This document shows positions 7,283 through 56,256 of a DNA stretch of 64,000 nucleotides, piece after piece. Made by a program: the position numbers and the translations under genes. Below the pieces are notes generated by a model. The model searched no databases. It saw nothing but the letters and a program-made list of their open reading frames with translations, and was not told the origin of the DNA. The DNA comes from Clostridia bacterium (GTDB taxonomy: Bacteria > Bacillota > DSM-521 > Neomoorellales > Neomoorellaceae), in NCBI GenBank assembly GCA_030445865.1, contig JASUSV010000003.1:1-64000 (forward strand). The letters are read 5' to 3'. How positions within the stretch are numbered: the first letter of the stretch is position 1; the number at the start of each line of letters is the position of its first letter.

Positions 7283-7378
7283 AACCCCGAAAAAGGCAAA
7301 CCCGTCGAAAGGCGGGGGCGCAAAACTAAAGGGTCTAAAGCTGTTATTAACAGCCAGGACAGCCAGTTGCCGCGGGTG
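7283..7378 (+). ncRNA. Cyclic-di-GMP-I (GEMM-I) riboswitch
   Basis: The sequence carries the GEMM-I hallmarks in order: AAAGGCAAACC (7292 onward), a GAAA-capped stem (CGTC GAAA GGCG), GGCGCAAAAC, GGGTCTAAAG, then CAGGACAGCCAG and TTGCCG. Short complementary ends (CCCG at 7286-7289 and CGGG at 7372-7375) could close P1. GEMM-I RNAs bind c-di-GMP and commonly precede chemotaxis and motility genes, as here. The exact boundaries are estimated. Confidence 0.85.
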
Positions 7379-16320: not shown

Positions 16321-16746
16321 TTGCAAGTAAATACATCCCGTTTTGGCGTACTGGAAGTAAACCCGGAAGAACTGTTAACCTTCCCCCACGGCATCCCCGC
16401 CTTTGAACACCTGCGGTCGTTTTTCTTTTGCCCCGTGCCTGAAAACCCGGCCTTTACCTGGCTCCAGGCGGTAGACGACCCCGATGTGGCCTTTCTCCTC
16501 GTTGACCCCTTCCTCTTTTTCCCCGGCTATGAGATTGAGCTTTCAGAGGCAGTCAAAAAGGAGCTAAAAATAAAAGAGCCGCAAGACGTGCTCGTTTTGG
16601 CCACGGTTACCATACCGGACGGAAACCTAAGCCGCATGACGGCCAATCTGGCGGGTCCCCTGGTTATCAACAGAGCCGCCCGCCTGGGCCTGCAACTGAT
16701 CCTCGAAGATAAAAAATATACTACCAAGCACCGCCTGATAGCCTAG
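16321..16746 (+). CDS. fliW: Flagellar assembly factor FliW
   Basis: 141 residues, the whole FliW domain: LTFPHGIPAFE near the N-terminus, then FLLVDPFLFFPGYE and ATVTIPDG. FliW binds both flagellin and CsrA. When flagellin is low, FliW leaves CsrA inhibited, and when flagellin accumulates CsrA is freed to block flagellin mRNA. The TTG start follows GAGGTGA. csrA lies 190 bp downstream, a wider gap than the overlap seen in many Bacilli. Confidence 0.94.
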   Translation: MQVNTSRFGVLEVNPEELLTFPHGIPAFEHLRSFFFCPVPENPAFTWLQAVDDPDVAFLLVDPFLFFPGYEIELSEAVKKELKIKEPQDVLVLATVTIPDGNLSRMTANLAGPLVINRAARLGLQLILEDKKYTTKHRLIA

Positions 16747-16936: not shown

Positions 16937-17155
16937 GTGTTGGTATTAACCAGGCGTGTAAATGAGACCATCGTTATCGGTGCCAACATCGAAGTTACCG
17001 TGGTCGGCATCGAAGAAGATAAAGTCCGTCTAGGTATTAAGGCCCCACCTGAGATTAATATTGTACGGCGTGAACTCTTTGAGGCTGTGCGCTCCGAAAA
17101 CAGGGCTGCTGCCCAAAACCCCAGAATACCTTTAGATGGCTTAAAGCGGGGGTGA
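16937..17155 (+). CDS. csrA: Carbon storage/translational regulator CsrA
   Basis: 72 residues, standard size. It opens MLVLTRRVNETIVIG from a GTG start and contains the RNA-binding core EVTVVGIEEDKVRLGIKAP. CsrA dimers bind GGA motifs in hairpin loops and block ribosome access. It lies between fliW and flagellin, and the flagellin leader carries such motifs (18381-18413). Its stop overlaps the next reading frame. Confidence 0.95.
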   Translation: MLVLTRRVNETIVIGANIEVTVVGIEEDKVRLGIKAPPEINIVRRELFEAVRSENRAAAQNPRIPLDGLKRG

Positions 17156-17160
17156 AAATT

Positions 17161-17826
17161 TTGAGTAAAAACGGAGATGGGGCTGAAATTAAAGAAACCG
17201 CAGAACACTATATAGGGGATGGTGTTCGTGCTGTTCCGTCCGGCAGGCTAAGTTTCGAAGAATTTCTACAATGGGCAGATGAAGATACCTGGGCCGAGTG
17301 GGTGGAGGGAGAGGTAAGGGTAATGACGCCAGCTTCAGCAAGACACCAAAAGATATGCGCTTTTTTAGTTGCTATTTTAACTGAATTTACATCCCACAAG
17401 GGCCTGGGAGAAGTGTTATTTGCCCCTTTCCTCGTCCGCCTGCCGGAACCTCTAAAACGGGGACGGGAACCAGATTTGATTTTTGTAGCTAAAGAGCGGT
17501 TGTCGCTCTTAAAGCCAACTTATTTGGACGGCGCTCCCGATCTGGTTGTAGAAATCACTTCGCCGGAAAGTATTGCCCGGGACCGGGGAGAAAAATTCGT
17601 TGAGTACGAAGCTGCCGGGGTGCGGGAATACTGGCTCATTGACCCCGACCGGAAGCAGGTAGAATTTTACCGCCTGGGAGAAAATGGACGTTATTGCCTG
17701 TTTACGGCCGATGCCGGAGGCATCTACCGCTGCCACGTTATCCCCGGGCTGTGGTTGCGTGTTGACTGGCTATGGCAAGAACCGCTGCCCTCGGTACTGA
17801 AAGTTTTGAGAGAGTTAGGGATTTAA
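17161..17826 (+). CDS. Uma2-family (DUF820) putative endonuclease
   Basis: About 221 residues. The restriction-endonuclease-like fold of Uma2 is indicated by WVEGEVRVMTPASARHQKI, then EPDLIFV, APDLVVEITSPES, and KFVEYEAAGVREYWLIDP, the PD-(D/E)xK-type region. Such genes occur in many copies in cyanobacteria and thermophilic Firmicutes and their role is unknown. The TTG at 17161 has GGGGGTGA 6 nt upstream, and a GTG at 17152 overlapping the csrA stop is the alternative. It is not a flagellar gene, and with the downstream toxin relic it looks like a small insertion between csrA and flagellin. Confidence 0.85.
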   Translation: MSKNGDGAEIKETAEHYIGDGVRAVPSGRLSFEEFLQWADEDTWAEWVEGEVRVMTPASARHQKICAFLVAILTEFTSHKGLGEVLFAPFLVRLPEPLKRGREPDLIFVAKERLSLLKPTYLDGAPDLVVEITSPESIARDRGEKFVEYEAAGVREYWLIDPDRKQVEFYRLGENGRYCLFTADAGGIYRCHVIPGLWLRVDWLWQEPLPSVLKVLRELGI

Positions 17827-23079: not shown

Positions 23080-23094
23080 AAGAAGGCAAATAGG

Positions 23095-23348
23095 CGCATC
23101 CGAAAGAAGTGTGAAAATGCCGGGGATGCTGGCGTAAGGCGACTTTGGGCGAGCCCTGCGAGCCGTTGGCGAGACCGAGCCCGGAGGCAGGCGCCGAGGG
23201 CATGGAGGCCCGAGGCCGGCCATTGAGGCAGGATGCCGAATTGGCCGGGAACCCCGCCGAAGGGTGAGGGGGAGCCCATACGGATCGCTGGCGAGCCCAT
23301 TAGGAACCGGCGCCAGCACCCCGGCATAGGGAGCGGTTAGGAAGCATC
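23095..23348 (+). mobile_element. Inverted-repeat element, copy A (long form)
   Basis: Left end CGCATCCGAAAGAAG...GCCGGGG and right end CCCCGGCATAGGG...GGAAGCATC are imperfect inverted repeats. It is nearly the same as copy C (55076-55328) along its whole length. Copy B (35021-35114) matches both ends but lacks the middle 159 bp (23134-23292 here). No clear flanking duplication is visible for this copy, so it may be older. No protein is encoded. Confidence 0.75.
23134..23292 (+). ncRNA. Candidate structured RNA inserted in copy A
   Basis: A 159-bp block absent from copy B. Its core (23196-23258) folds as CCGGCCA with TGGCCGG, enclosing a GGCA/TGCC hairpin. The same core occurs at 55176-55239 and, with paired base changes, at 46331-46392. 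The conserved order GAGGGCATG, GCCGGC, GAATT, GCCGGGAA, CCGCC reminds me of HEARO/omega RNAs of IscB/IsrB elements. This is from memory and unverified. The strand is assumed. Confidence 0.5.
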
Positions 23349-24200: not shown

Positions 24201-24303
24201 CTTGAACGTTAAGGGCAAGCTCCCCGAAAGGGGAAGCGCGCAAAGCCATGGGTCTAAGGTCCGGACGGCGAACCGGGCTACGATTGCCAGGCTGCCGTTT
24301 AAG
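24201..24303 (+). ncRNA. Cyclic-di-GMP-I (GEMM-I) riboswitch ahead of flgB
   Basis: P1 is CTTGAAC (24201-24207) with GTTTAAG (24297-24303). Inside are GGGCAAGC, a CCCC-GAAA-GGGG stem, GCGCAAAGCCATGGGTCTAAGG, a CCGG...CCGG stem, then TACGATTGCCAG and GCTGCCG. This is a near-textbook GEMM-I aptamer, including the GAAA tetraloop and its receptor-like CTAAGG/TACG region. It controls the main flagellar operon, as the C. difficile flgB riboswitch does. Confidence 0.93.
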
Positions 24304-34999: not shown

Positions 35000-35020
35000 G
35001 GCAAAGAGATGGATGGCAGG

Positions 35021-35114
35021 TGCTTCCGAAAGAAGTATGAAAATGCCGGGGATGCTGGCGAGCCCATCTGGAGCCGTCGCCAGCGCCCCGGCATGGGAAC
35101 GTTTCGGAAGCGTC
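35021..35114 (+). mobile_element. Inverted-repeat element, copy B (short form, with target duplication)
   Basis: 94 bp that fold back almost completely. TGCTTCCGAAA (left) pairs with TTTCGGAAGC (right), then GCCGGGG with CCCCGGC, then GCTGGCGA with TCGCCAGC. It is flanked by perfect 9-bp direct repeats GATGGCAGG at 35012-35020 and 35115-35123, the expected footprint of transposition. It is non-coding and MITE-like, and sits between motA and motB. Confidence 0.85.
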
Positions 35115-35139
35115 GATGGCAGGCTGGGGGTGAAGTATA

Positions 35140-45833: not shown

Positions 45834-46223
45834 TTGGGACTTTTTCTTGCGGGCCTTATTCTCCTGGCTTTCCCCCATCGAGAGCCCTCGCGGGAGGAAA
45901 TTATTGCTAAAGCGCGGGCCTATGGCATGGTCTTCCGGGAAGAGGTGGTCAATTTCGCGCCACCTCCCGGTAAGAATAGTTCTCCACCGGGCGGGGAAGT
46001 AAAAGAGCCGGCGCCGGTTAGTGAGGAAGAAGTGCTGGTGACCATACCGCCGGGTGCCGGCCTGGAGGAGATAGCAGCCTTGCTGGAAGAAAAAAAGGTA
46101 ATCAAAAGGGAAGTGTTTGAAGCTGCCGCCCGCAGGGCAGGCCTGGATCTTAAGCTCAAAGCCGGCTCCTACTACCTCCCTCCGGGAAAAGTAGAAGAAA
46201 TCCTGCGCCGTTTAACGGAGTGA
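45834..46223 (+). CDS. Small MltG/YceG-N-terminal-like membrane protein
   Basis: 129 residues from a TTG. A short hydrophobic start (GLFLAGLILLAF) precedes a Pro-rich linker. The C-terminal part, VTIPPGAGLEEIAALLEEKKVI followed by AGLDLKLKAGSYYLPPG, resembles the LysM-like module at the front of the endolytic transglycosylase MltG. The catalytic domain is absent, so it is unlikely to cut peptidoglycan itself. Weak RBS. Probably the last gene of the operon. A hairpin (CCCCAG/CTGGGG) follows at 46234-46250. Confidence 0.65.
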   Translation: MGLFLAGLILLAFPHREPSREEIIAKARAYGMVFREEVVNFAPPPGKNSSPPGGEVKEPAPVSEEEVLVTIPPGAGLEEIAALLEEKKVIKREVFEAAARRAGLDLKLKAGSYYLPPGKVEEILRRLTE

Positions 46224-46255
46224 GTTGGGTTATCCCCAGTTTTCGCTGGGGGAGG

Positions 46256-46460
46256 CTGCTTTGGCTTGAAAGCGAGGTTCTTTCCCCGAGCGGTAGCCAA
46301 ACTTAACGAGGCCGAAAGCGCAAGCCGCCCGAGGGCATGAGACCTTCGGCCGGCAACTGAGACAGGAGGTCGAATTTGCCGGGAAGTCCGCCTTAAGCTT
46401 TAAGGCCGAGCGCTAGTTTGGCCCGCGAGGAGAATCCTTTGCAAGCGTAAGCCAAAGCAG
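46256..46460 (+). ncRNA. Candidate structured RNA element, copy E
   Basis: 205 bp closed by a perfect 12-bp inverted repeat, CTGCTTTGGCTT (46256-46267) with AAGCCAAAGCAG (46449-46460). A second stem pairs GCCAAACT (46296-46303) with AGTTTGGC (46415-46422). The core 46331-46392 matches the insert of copies A and C. CCGGCAA/TTGCCGG here replaces CCGGCCA/TGGCCGG there, and GAC/GTC replaces GGC/GCC, so pairing is kept. No protein is encoded. It fills most of the gap between the operon end and the rod genes. Strand assumed. Confidence 0.65.
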
Positions 46461-46608
46461 GCTGAAAAGTGGAGATACGCCAGCGGAGTGAGAGGTTGAT
46501 TTATTTCCCGTTCTGCGCTAAGGGAAAGGGCCGGAGGCGGGGGGATATATTGCTTCGCGAATTATAAAAAAACCGGAAATAGGAAGAGTAGCAAGGGGGG
46601 AATTAATT

Positions 46609-50585: not shown

Positions 50586-51572
50586 GTGGCTGAAGTTTTA
50601 AGCCAGGCGGAGATCGATTCCTTATTGCAGGCTCTTACTACCGGCGTAGTTAAGGCAGAAGAGTTGCAAAAGGAAGCGGCGCAGCCCAAAGCAAAACGTT
50701 ACGATTTCCGCCGGCCGAACAAATTTTCTAAGGAACACCTTCGTACTCTCTACATGATCCACGAAAATTACGGCCGCCTGGTGGCCAATTTTCTTTCCGC
50801 CTATTTAAGGGCCAACGTGCAGATAAAAATCAATTCTGTGGAGCAGATGACTTACGAGGATTTTATCGTGTCGTTGCCCACTCCAACTTTAATGACGGTC
50901 TTTTCCATGGAACCCTTAAAAGGTTCTGCGGTGCTGGAGACCAACCTGGCTTTCGTTTTTCCCATTATAGATCTGCTTTTCGGCGGTTCGGGCGAAATGC
51001 CGGCCAAAGTAAGGGAGTTAACCGAAATCGAGCTCCACGTTTTGCGCCGCTTGAGTAGCCGTATCTTAGAGCAACTTATTTATGTATGGTCCGACGTTTA
51101 CCCCGTCAAGCCCAAAGTGGAATCTGTGGAGACCAATCCCCAGTTTGCCCAGGTGATTTCGCCTAATGAGACGGCGGCCATTATTACCCTGGCCAGCAAT
51201 ATTAACGGACACGAGGGTTTGATGAACCTGTGCCTGCCTTTTATGCTTTTGGAGCCGGTTATCTCTCGGCTGTCGGCCAGCCAGTGGTTTGCCGCCTTAA
51301 GGGAAGGCGAGGCCAGGCCCGATTACCGGGATAAGGTTGCCGCAATCTTAAACAATATCCCTGTAAAATTAATCGCCTATTGCGGCCGCACCCGGCTGAC
51401 GGTAAGAGAGTTCATCCATTTACAGGAAGGGGACGTTATCGCCCTGGACAATTCCATCGGCGACGACCTGGAATTACACGTCGATGGCTACTTGAAATTT
51501 AAAGTCCAGCCGGGGCTGGTAGGTAAAAAAATTGCGGTTCAGGTGACGGAGGTATTGCAAAATGGCAGATAA
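50586..51572 (+). CDS. fliM: Motor switch protein FliM
   Basis: About 328 residues. The N-terminal CheY-P-binding peptide is LSQAEIDSLLQAL, followed by the CheC-like middle domain (PNKFSKEHLRTLYMIHENYGRL) and a C-terminal SpoA domain (LTVREFIHLQEGDVIALDNSIGD). The GTG at 50586 has GGGAGGGG 5 nt upstream, with an ATG at 50571 as alternative. It overlaps fliY by 11 bp. Confidence 0.96.
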   Translation: MAEVLSQAEIDSLLQALTTGVVKAEELQKEAAQPKAKRYDFRRPNKFSKEHLRTLYMIHENYGRLVANFLSAYLRANVQIKINSVEQMTYEDFIVSLPTPTLMTVFSMEPLKGSAVLETNLAFVFPIIDLLFGGSGEMPAKVRELTEIELHVLRRLSSRILEQLIYVWSDVYPVKPKVESVETNPQFAQVISPNETAAIITLASNINGHEGLMNLCLPFMLLEPVISRLSASQWFAALREGEARPDYRDKVAAILNNIPVKLIAYCGRTRLTVREFIHLQEGDVIALDNSIGDDLELHVDGYLKFKVQPGLVGKKIAVQVTEVLQNGR

Positions 51573-52629
51573 TTTTCTTTCCCAGGAGGAGATAGACGCC
51601 CTTTTGAAAGGAACTTTTAGAGGCGAGGTGGCGGACAAAGACCTTACCGAGACGGAGAAAGATGTCTTAGGCGAAATCGGCAATATTTCTATGGGGAGCG
51701 CGGCCACAACCCTCTCTCAGATTTTAAATAAAAGAGTAACTATTACTACACCTTCTGTCAGGGTAACGACACCTAAGGAGTTATTTGAAAGTTTTGAAGT
51801 ACCTTATCTAGCGGTAGAAGTTACGTTTACCGAGGGTTTAGAAGGAGTCAATCTCCTGATCATAAAGGTCAGCGATGCCTCGGTAATTGCCGACCTGATG
51901 ATGGGCGGCAGCGGCCTGGCTAAAAGCGAAGTGCTTACCGAAATACAGATCAGCGCCGTGGCGGAAGCCATGAACCAGATGATCGGTTCGGCAGCCACTT
52001 CCATGTCTACCATATTTCAGCGCAGCGTTAAAATCTCGCCACCTACCGTTACGCCGGTAGATCTTACGGGCGAAAGCCTGCCTTCGCCCTGGCCGACGGA
52101 CAGCAAAATCGCCGTCGTATCTTTTAAGATGGAAATAGAGGGCCTGGTAAACAGCGAAATTATGCAGGTTATGCCCCTGGAAATTGCTAAATTAGAAGCC
52201 GATCTGCTATTAAATCCTTCTCAAACCGGCATTTCGGAAATACCCCCGGCCGGAGATCCCGCTGGAGCGCCGCAGGATTTCGGGGCCGGCGAGGTAGCAA
52301 TACCTCCGGCTCAGCCCGATGGCAACGGGGAAAACCGCCGGCCGCCTGCTGTGGTTGGGGCCAGTGCCCGCAATCTGGACCTAATTTTGGATGTACCTTT
52401 GGATATTTCGGTGGTGCTTGGGGAAACCGACAAGCCTATCCGCGATATTTTAGAATTGGCGCCAGGCGCCATTGTCGAGCTAGAAAGAAACGCCGACGAG
52501 CCGGTTGAAATTTTAGTTAACGGCACTTTAATTGCCCGCGGCGAAGTAGTTATAGTTAATGAAAACTTCGGTGTCCGCATTACCGATATCCTCGATCCCT
52601 ACGAACGGGTTAATCAGTTGAGGAAATAG
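51562..52629 (+). CDS. fliY: Motor switch phosphatase FliY
   Basis: 355 residues in three parts. An EIDALL CheY-docking peptide lies near residue 10. A CheC-like domain holds two active-site helices (DVLGEIGN; SAVAEAMN). After a Pro/Gly linker comes a C-terminal FliN domain (LDVPLDISVVLGETDKPIRDIL; GTLIARGEVVIVNENFGVRI). It is both a structural switch component and a CheY-P phosphatase. A separate FliN at 36.4 kb suggests a mixed C-ring. Confidence 0.96.
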   Translation: MADNFLSQEEIDALLKGTFRGEVADKDLTETEKDVLGEIGNISMGSAATTLSQILNKRVTITTPSVRVTTPKELFESFEVPYLAVEVTFTEGLEGVNLLIIKVSDASVIADLMMGGSGLAKSEVLTEIQISAVAEAMNQMIGSAATSMSTIFQRSVKISPPTVTPVDLTGESLPSPWPTDSKIAVVSFKMEIEGLVNSEIMQVMPLEIAKLEADLLLNPSQTGISEIPPAGDPAGAPQDFGAGEVAIPPAQPDGNGENRRPPAVVGASARNLDLILDVPLDISVVLGETDKPIRDILELAPGAIVELERNADEPVEILVNGTLIARGEVVIVNENFGVRITDILDPYERVNQLRK

Positions 52630-52652: not shown

Positions 52653-52678
52653 GGCCGGAAAGTTTAAACTTTCCGGCC
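52653..52678. terminator. 26-bp palindrome between convergent genes
   Basis: GGCCGGAAAGTTT followed by its exact reverse complement AAACTTTCCGGCC. It lies between the ends of fliY (+) and the SASP gene (-), as expected for a shared terminator. The T-run is weak on the plus side and AT-rich on the minus side. Confidence 0.6.
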
Positions 52679-52687
52679 GGTGTGCAG

Positions 52688-52864
52688 CTAGCGGTTATTC
52701 ACCAGGCTGCGTTCTGCCCTTTCAATGGCCAGCCGTACCAGGTTACCGCATTGCCGGGAAGGTACGCTGCCCCAGCCCTCGGTAGCCACAGTATCGGCGA
52801 CACCCAGCTCTTTGGCCAATTCCCATTTGAGAGCATCAGACATGATCCCACGTCTGCGCGCCAT
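52688..52864 (-). CDS. Alpha/beta-type small acid-soluble spore protein
   Basis: 58 residues: MARRRGIMSDALKWELAKEL, then GVADTVATEGWGSV and a second helix with CGNLVRLAIERAE. This is the SASP family that coats and protects DNA in dormant spores. The ELAKELG region is the usual site of cleavage by the germination protease. The ATG is preceded by AAGGAGGTT. A member of the SspF-like short class. It indicates a spore-forming host. Presumably transcribed by forespore sigma-G, although no promoter was assigned. Confidence 0.93.
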   Translation of the reverse strand: MARRRGIMSDALKWELAKELGVADTVATEGWGSVPSRQCGNLVRLAIERAERSLVNNR

Positions 52865-53023
52865 GGCCCAACCTCCTTAAATTTTTTGCTGCACACCTTA
52901 TTTTATTTTTTACCTTGTTTAAGGGCCTCATGCTGGCTTTTTTATGGTTGGGCTGCGCATAACCTGGTGGCTCGCTTAAAAATTAAAAATTGGCCGCGTT
53001 TATAGGGCCCGGTCGCCTGCTTT

Positions 53024-54843: not shown

Positions 54844-55075
54844 AAAAGCCGGCCGTGAGTTGCTTGTCGGTGGGACGCCTTGCTCCATGTGTCGTGAAAA
54901 CGCGTTTCGGCTAAGAGGTGGTGGATACGGGCTGAGGGCGAGCGATTTGAGGTGGGAAGATACTTGTGCAGAACCAAAGGCTTTGCGGCGGTAAACGGGA
55001 TGGAGCAACGGCGGCCTCTTTAGAAACGATCAGTCGCGGTTTCCGGGGATTTGTCGGATTAAGCTTACCTATTGG
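54844..55075. other. Unassigned intergenic stretch
   Basis: About 230 bp with no supported gene, promoter or terminator between the flavoprotein stop and repeat copy C. A plus-strand frame running from inside the flavoprotein gene to about 54994 (ending CAEPKALRR) vaguely recalls degenerate insertion-sequence ends but cannot be assigned. Confidence 0.4.
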
Positions 55076-55328
55076 TGCTTCCGAAAGAAGTATGAAAATG
55101 CCGGGGATGCTGGCGTAAGGCGACTTTGGGCGAGCCCTGCGAGCCGTTGGCGAAACCGAGCCCGGAGGCGGGGCCGAGGACAGAGAGGCCTGCGGCCGGC
55201 CACTGAGGCAAGGATGCCGAATTGGCCGGGAACCCCGCCGGAGGGCGAGGGGGAGCCATACGGATCGCTGGCAAGCCCATCTGGAGCCGTCGCCAGCGCC
55301 CCGGCACGGAGAATGTTTCGGAAGCATC
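55076..55328 (+). mobile_element. Inverted-repeat element, copy C (long form)
   Basis: 253 bp. Left end TGCTTCCGAAAGAAG, right end TGTTTCGGAAGCATC. Flanks ACCTATTGG (55067-55075) and ACCTATTTT (55329-55337) share 7 of 9 bases at the same offset as the perfect 9-bp duplication of copy B. It carries the 158-bp block 55115-55272 found in copy A. It is inserted at the stop codon of the minus-strand transporter gene. Confidence 0.78.
55115..55272 (+). ncRNA. Candidate structured RNA inserted in copy C
   Basis: A near-duplicate of 23134-23292. The core 55176-55239 keeps CCGGCCA with TGGCCGG and the GGCA/TGCC hairpin. Small differences from copy A lie mostly outside the stems. Absent from copy B, where GCTGGC joins directly to GAGCCCAT. 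Strand assumed. Confidence 0.5.
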
Positions 55329-56256
55329 ACCTATTTTCCGGCAAGATCCAGGTGGTGACCCCGGCCAGAGCGCCTACCAGGGGCAGGGCGGCGAGGGAAG
55401 TAGCCACGTTAAAGAAAGTGTGAAAATGGGCTATCTGCCTGGCCATCGAAGGGGAGAGCCAGGATAAAAAAGAGCTTATGATGCCCAAGAAAGGAAGGAA
55501 AATGAAGGCCCCGAAGATGTTAAGTAAAAAATGAGCCAGGGCCGTCTGCTGAGCGGCTCGGGAAGCAAAAACGGCGGCTGCAAGGGCGGTTATGCAGGTA
55601 CCGATATTGGCCCCCAGCACCACGGTCAGGGCTGCAGGCAAGGGCAACAGCCCCTGGGCAGCCAATATCATAGTCAGGCTGGTTACAGCGCTGCTGGAAT
55701 GCAGTAGGGCGGTTACGATTACGCCCGCCAGGAGTCCCTGCCAGGGGGAGGCTGCGGCAGCCGCCAGGGGGCCTAATAAGGCGGGCGCTTCCCTCCAGGG
55801 TTGCAGGGCCTGGGTCAGCAAAGATAGGCTGAGAAAGATCATCCCGGTGCCAAGAAGGGTTAAACCCAGGGGACGGCTGCGTGCCGGTATAAGGAGCAAG
55901 AGGGAAACAAGCAGCATGGGTAGGGCCAATTCCTCCAGGTCGAAGGCCAGAATTTGTACCGTAACGCAGGTTCCGATGTTGGCGCCGAGGATGAGACCCA
56001 GGCTTTGCCGGAAGGAAATTAGGCCGGCATCAACAAGCCCAACGGTAAAGACGGTTGCGGCGGTGCTGGACTGTACCAGAGCCGTGGCCAGCGTACCCCA
56101 GCAGAGACCTCGCCAGGGAGTAGAGGCTGCCCGGCGCAAGATTTGCTCGAAGCGGTGCCGGGCCATGCCTGCCAGACCTTGCCGTAAAAACTGCATACCC
56201 ATCAAAAGCAGGCCTACACCCAAACTCAACTGCAGTAAAGCTATAGACAAGGCCAT
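55327..56256 (-). CDS. Na+/phosphate cotransporter II-family membrane protein
   Basis: 309 residues with two inverted copies of the Na/Pi cotransporter repeat, marked by VQSSTAATVFTVGL (with GANIGTCVTVQI) and LHSSSAVTSLTMIL (with GANIGTCITALA). About eight TM helices. It lacks the C-terminal PhoU-like domain of longer relatives. Likely imports phosphate or a similar anion with Na+. The stop TGA is formed across the junction with repeat copy C. Reading through the left flank instead gives TAA at the same codon, so the protein end seems unchanged by the insertion. Confidence 0.87.
   Translation of the reverse strand: MALSIALLQLSLGVGLLLMGMQFLRQGLAGMARHRFEQILRRAASTPWRGLCWGTLATALVQSSTAATVFTVGLVDAGLISFRQSLGLILGANIGTCVTVQILAFDLEELALPMLLVSLLLLIPARSRPLGLTLLGTGMIFLSLSLLTQALQPWREAPALLGPLAAAAASPWQGLLAGVIVTALLHSSSAVTSLTMILAAQGLLPLPAALTVVLGANIGTCITALAAAVFASRAAQQTALAHFLLNIFGAFIFLPFLGIISSFLSWLSPSMARQIAHFHTFFNVATSLAALPLVGALAGVTTWILPENR

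Follow-up and report, generated by a model that had tools for sequence, protein, structure and literature searches.

The window examined here is a 64,000-nucleotide stretch of DNA from a member of the Neomoorellaceae (Clostridia bacterium, GCA_030445865.1, contig JASUSV010000003.1, positions 1 to 64,000). It carries three copies of a structured RNA core, termed elements A, C, and E, together with genes for the global regulator CsrA and its protein antagonist FliW. Coordinates refer to the window, and strands are given where they apply:

16321-16746 (+), fliW, encoding a protein antagonist of CsrA in Gram-positives
16937-17155 (+), csrA, encoding the presumed partner protein (the only csrA found in this genome; GTG start assumed)
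17152-17826 (+), a Uma2-family (putative endonuclease) gene directly after csrA
7286-7375 and 24204-24299 (+), two c-di-GMP-I riboswitch aptamers, one of them a GGC variant
23093-23348 (+), element A, with ends GGCGCATCCGAAA...GGAAGCATC (second end type), core at 23163-23282, and two intact GGA hairpins (23198-23211 and 23227-23237)
35020-35114 (+), a core-less short version of the A/C element, with a perfect 8-bp duplication GATGGCAG (35012-35019 and 35115-35122)
46216-46224, left copy of the 9-bp target-site duplication CGGAGTGAG, containing the stop codon of the YceG-like ORF 45834-46223
46225-46483 (+), element E, an IS4-type miniature element carrying the RNA, with boundaries set by terminal repeats and target duplication
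46225-46243 (+), left end of element E, TTGGGTTATCCCCAGTTTT, matching the ends of full IS4 elements in relatives
46300-46418 (+), conserved RNA core of element E
46333-46346 (+), hairpin 1 of element E, with a degenerate loop (AUGAGA, no GGA)
46361-46371 (+), hairpin 2 of element E, GACAGGAGGUC, a CsrA-type loop with GGA at 46365-46367
46465-46483 (-), right end of element E, reading inward CTGGCGTATCTCCACTTTT
46484-46492, right copy of the target-site duplication CGGAGTGAG
52653-52678, a perfect 26-bp palindrome between ORFs 51562-52629 and 52682-53005, perhaps a terminator
55074-55328 (+), element C, with the second end type, a 7-8 bp target duplication ACCTATT at 55067-55073 and 55329-55335, core at 55144-55263, and an intact GGA hairpin at 55207-55218

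The original prediction described a recurrent RNA core of roughly 62 bp with compensatory base changes, and this observation is confirmed. The three copies share a core of ~62-120 nt. In element E, CCGGCAA (46350-46356) pairs with TTGCCGG (46376-46382), whereas A and C have CCGGCC and GGCCGG; likewise, GAC/GTC (46361-46363 and 46369-46371) in E corresponds to GGC/GCC. However, the element is larger than first described. Moreover, E does not simply lack the outer ends of A and C, as had been stated, but has different transposon ends and its own outer arms.

A covariance model, termed R1, was built from 26 diverse cores. It matches the cores of E, A, and C with 90 (90.4), 101, and 113 bits, respectively, and the next best match in the window is noise at 12 bits. 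In the draft genome (2.08 Mb in 90 contigs), R1 finds 61 cores, in addition to core-less versions of the elements. Many of these copies sit at contig ends, so the repeat breaks the assembly and the count is a lower bound. Covariation among the 26 cores is strong: 11 of 17 base pairs show changes on both sides, and the covariation score of 0.371 exceeds that of shuffled alignments (0.143 +/- 0.014, with 0 of 500 as high) and of slid structures (at most 0.096). The compensations described in the original prediction hold generally.

Folded copies are long rods of short G+C-rich helices separated by tandem G.A pairs (GAGCGAGCG-type repeats on both arms), and they are closed by variable outer stems that themselves compensate between copies. 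The tandem G.A pairs appear as CUGA/GAAU and CCGA/CGAG loops in folds and in the alignment. The rod ends in two small hairpins. Among 89 distinct cores, hairpin 2 keeps GGA in 82 and hairpin 1 keeps it in 60, whereas the stem of hairpin 2 varies among GAC/GTC, GGC/GCC, GCC/GGC, and TGC/GCA. Hairpins of the AN(N)GGAN type with at least three stem pairs occur in 84 of the 89 cores, with two in 51 and one in 33; the corresponding frequency is 6.3% in shuffled cores and 0 of 89 on the reverse strand. In this genome, 40 of 43 readable copies keep at least one such hairpin, and 21 carry ACA(R)GGA(U/G)GU, which is close to the CsrA SELEX consensus RUACARGGAUGU. Element A has both hairpins, whereas C and E keep only hairpin 2. 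A third of copies have lost the loop of hairpin 1, as is expected for decaying cargo as well as for relaxed function.

The original prediction likened the core and its long closing stems to HEARO/omega RNAs of the IscB/IsrB family. Its interpretation is only partly supported: a recurrent, dispersed RNA under structural selection, with covariation and no protein, is borne out, but a HEARO identity is not supported. The Rfam HEARO model (RF02033) yielded no hit to element E even at E<=10, nor to 20 loci holding relatives. The target duplications of 8 or 9 bp are unlike the insertion mode of IS605/IscB elements, the ends are DDE-type with an IS4 partner in relatives, and no guide-like variable segment was seen. 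With only a resemblance of long closing stems and a compact core in its favor, we reject the reading as very unlikely. A trans-acting family remains plausible, but as a CsrA-binding RNA rather than a guide RNA. No riboswitch or other Rfam family matches the element at its curated threshold.

The only Rfam family that matches relatives across the appropriate interval is TwoAYGGAY (RF01731; Weinberg et al. 2010, PMC2864571). Six distant relatives (loci designated by L numbers) match this model over the same interval and strand as R1: L203 with 48.3 bits, above the gathering score of 43, and L189 (40.6), L194 (35.6), L175 (30.1), L152 (29.9), and L187 (28.4) below it. However, the RF01731 model itself finds none of the copies in this genome, and gives no hit to element E at E<=10. 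By the Rfam threshold, therefore, the window copies are not members of RF01731, but belong to a wider, divergent group that joins it through intermediate relatives. The cores resemble TwoAYGGAY RNAs in overall layout, with a tandem G.A stem and two terminal hairpins with A-Y-GGA-Y-like loops, although, as noted, two AN(N)GGAN hairpins are present in 51 of 89 cores and one in 33. They differ in their looser loops (AAGGAU, AGGAG), in their long extra arms, and in being carried by transposons in tens of copies, which we did not find described in the papers searched.

TwoAYGGAY belongs to Rfam clan CL00106, and a scan of E. coli csrB shows that CsrB (RF00018) has the same clan. Gardner and Eldai predicted in 2014 that TwoAYGGAY binds CsrA and noted its tandem G.A pairs (PMC4333381). 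The CsrA SELEX consensus RUACARGGAUGU and the ANGGAN hexaloop rule (PMC7652899) fit loops such as GGACAGGAUGUCC, and the cores present ANGGAN-type loops on short stems, in multiples, as expected from these criteria. As in CsrB/RsmZ-type CsrA-sequestering sRNAs, GGA lies in multiple hairpin loops and CsrA titration is presumed. In contrast to those sRNAs, the elements have one or two sites each, are dispersed through the genome rather than encoded by one dedicated gene, have no demonstrated promoter, and reside in FliW-encoding Gram-positive hosts.

R1 hits 68 of 399 sampled genomes of the phylum, in 49 of 268 genera, often in nine or more copies. An exact-pattern scan names Moorella stamsii, M. 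mulderi, M. sulfitireducens, Desulfofundulus, and Desulfovirgula among the carriers; in Moorella, the core sits in elements with other arms. In one low-G+C genus, a single high-scoring copy is present per genome, in related surroundings (L186, L188, L189, and L201, in sampled genomes G139, G104, G244, and G374), and this may be an immobile, domesticated version. A csrA gene is present in 64 of the 68 RNA-positive genomes, compared with 284 of 399 overall (Fisher p=6e-7, not corrected for kinship). Within one genus (g4), one genome has both the RNA and csrA, and one has neither. The four RNA-positive genomes that show no csrA (G021, G156, G324, and G365) are all in 140 or more contigs.

The RNA is carried by two kinds of miniature transposon with unrelated ends. 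E-type copies begin with CTGRNNTATCCCC, end with GGGGATANGCCAG, and are flanked by 9-bp duplications; element E is inserted at the stop codon of ORF 45834-46223. A/C-type copies have the ends GGTGCWTCCGAAA and TTTCGGAAGCATC and 8-bp duplications. Matching flanks far exceed chance: among A/C-type copies, 18 of 25 match at 6 or more of 8 positions, against 2.8% by chance, and among the IS4 type, 20 of about 32 real copies (a hand count) match at 7 or more of 9, against 0.75%. In two relatives, genomes G005 and G018, an IS4-family transposase gene (NF033591, 213 bits) lies inside an element whose first 18-19 bases closely match the E-type ends (CTG..TATCCCC) and which, in G005, has a 9-bp duplication CCTGCCGGC. 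No such IS4 was found in this genome. An ISL3 transposase was considered as the mobilizer of A and C, but no PF01610 was found in this genome, and none of the ISL3 loci in relatives carries GRTGCTTCCGAAA ends. A scan of the retrieved loci for A/C-type ends 700-3500 bp apart likewise yielded no autonomous element.

Core-less versions of both types also have perfect duplications (E type at loci L014, L016, and L088; A/C type at window 35020-35114), and the short E forms share one deletion junction, so they transposed without the core. The RNA is therefore cargo, not a transposition signal. Element E differs from other IS4-family miniature elements in carrying a phylum-wide conserved structured RNA. 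BOX elements of Streptococcus pneumoniae, which are modular bacterial MITEs, are likewise short repeats with stable stem-loops and an optional internal module. They differ in host and sequence, and here the module is an identifiable RNA class shared by two unrelated transposon types.

A rival explanation is that the elements are selfish palindromic miniature transposons, whose fold and GGA loops persist only because copies are recent relatives or because the fold helps the element survive (for example, by insulating transcription), without any involvement of CsrA. The high copy number, the transposon ends and duplications, the degeneracy of many copies, and the absence of a mobility benefit from the core are consistent with this view. 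However, the loop GGA is conserved while stems change across dozens of genera, and strictly on one strand. In addition, the same core occurs under two unrelated end types and in Moorella elements with different arms, and it is associated with csrA and related to the CsrB clan. We therefore consider this explanation unlikely.

The folded strand is co-directional with both neighboring genes in 47 copies and opposed to both in 18 (p=4e-4), and the upstream gene is on the same strand in 64 of 88 (p=2e-5). Median distances are 46 nt after the upstream ORF and 38 nt before the next. These values rely on a simple ORF caller, with spurious ORFs inside the G+C-rich elements excluded, and they fit an RNA made by read-through transcription. 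Selection might instead act on folded single-stranded DNA, such as a transposition or replication intermediate, because tandem G.A pairs are also stable in DNA and because single-stranded DNA also allows strand-specific features. However, G.T exceeds A.C in paired columns (55 against 28), the orientation is biased toward transcription, transposed versions lack the core, and DDE transposases act on double-stranded ends. This alternative appears very doubtful.

The explanation that we favor, and regard as more likely than not, is that the core is a divergent branch of the TwoAYGGAY kind of RNA whose ANGGAN hairpins would each be a CsrA-binding site, such that one RNA could hold both faces of a CsrA dimer. 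Copies would probably be made as parts of mRNAs, would together titrate CsrA as a distributed sponge of embedded decoys, and could individually place the carrying transcript under CsrA control. Our analysis demonstrates the copies, their covariation, the strand-specific conservation of GGA hairpins, the transposon ends with target duplications, the transposition of core-less versions, the IS4 partner in relatives, the orientation bias, and the co-occurrence with csrA. By contrast, CsrA binding, transcription, and titration or cis-regulation are inferences in the absence of binding or expression data, and element E itself has lost the GGA of hairpin 1. A narrower and overlapping possibility is that the elements are mainly cis-acting CsrA sites affecting stability, translation of the downstream gene, or termination, with no relevant global titration. 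Their positions and orientation support this view, as do several Moorella copies that end just before a ribosome-binding site and ATG. Nevertheless, the GGA hairpins lie 80 or more nt from the next start codon, unlike classic CsrA repression over the Shine-Dalgarno, and about sixty copies make some titration hard to avoid if they are expressed. A mainly cis-acting role seems less likely than the favored explanation.

A broader and more tentative possibility is that transposons have turned a CsrA-binding RNA into mobile cargo, building a sponge of about sixty units that sets CsrA activity and rewires its regulon in FliW-encoding Gram-positive bacteria, where CsrB-type sRNA antagonists have not been established. 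If correct, this would show a bacterial regulator's binding sites being spread by transposons, and would give Gram-positive CsrA systems RNA antagonists besides the protein FliW. TwoAYGGAY has been an RNA of unknown function with one untested CsrA prediction. The present family supplies many diverse copies for comparison, a phylum-wide association with csrA, and a concrete set of hosts (Moorella and relatives) in which binding can be tested. The individual parts are of known kinds, but literature on Moorella MITEs and repeats, on CsrA with MITEs, and on transposon-derived CsrA sponges contained nothing on this element in the papers searched, and the combination of mobility, multiple copies, csrA linkage, phylum-wide distribution, and absence from Rfam matches appears to be new.

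Hairpin 1 exists in a few alternative blocks (GGGCAUGGAGGCCCGAGG, GGACAGAGAGGCCUGCGG, GGACAGGAUGUCCGAGG, and GGGCAUGAGACCUUCGG) in many copies in this genome, for example at window 55176-55196. These blocks reassort with alternative hairpin-2 and stem blocks between copies, suggesting gene conversion between elements. In Moorella, the right flanks of many copies (L134-L162) end in a shared GUGACAAAGUUAUUUUCGGAGG-like stretch just before an ATG, so the element or its target site may supply the ribosome-binding site.
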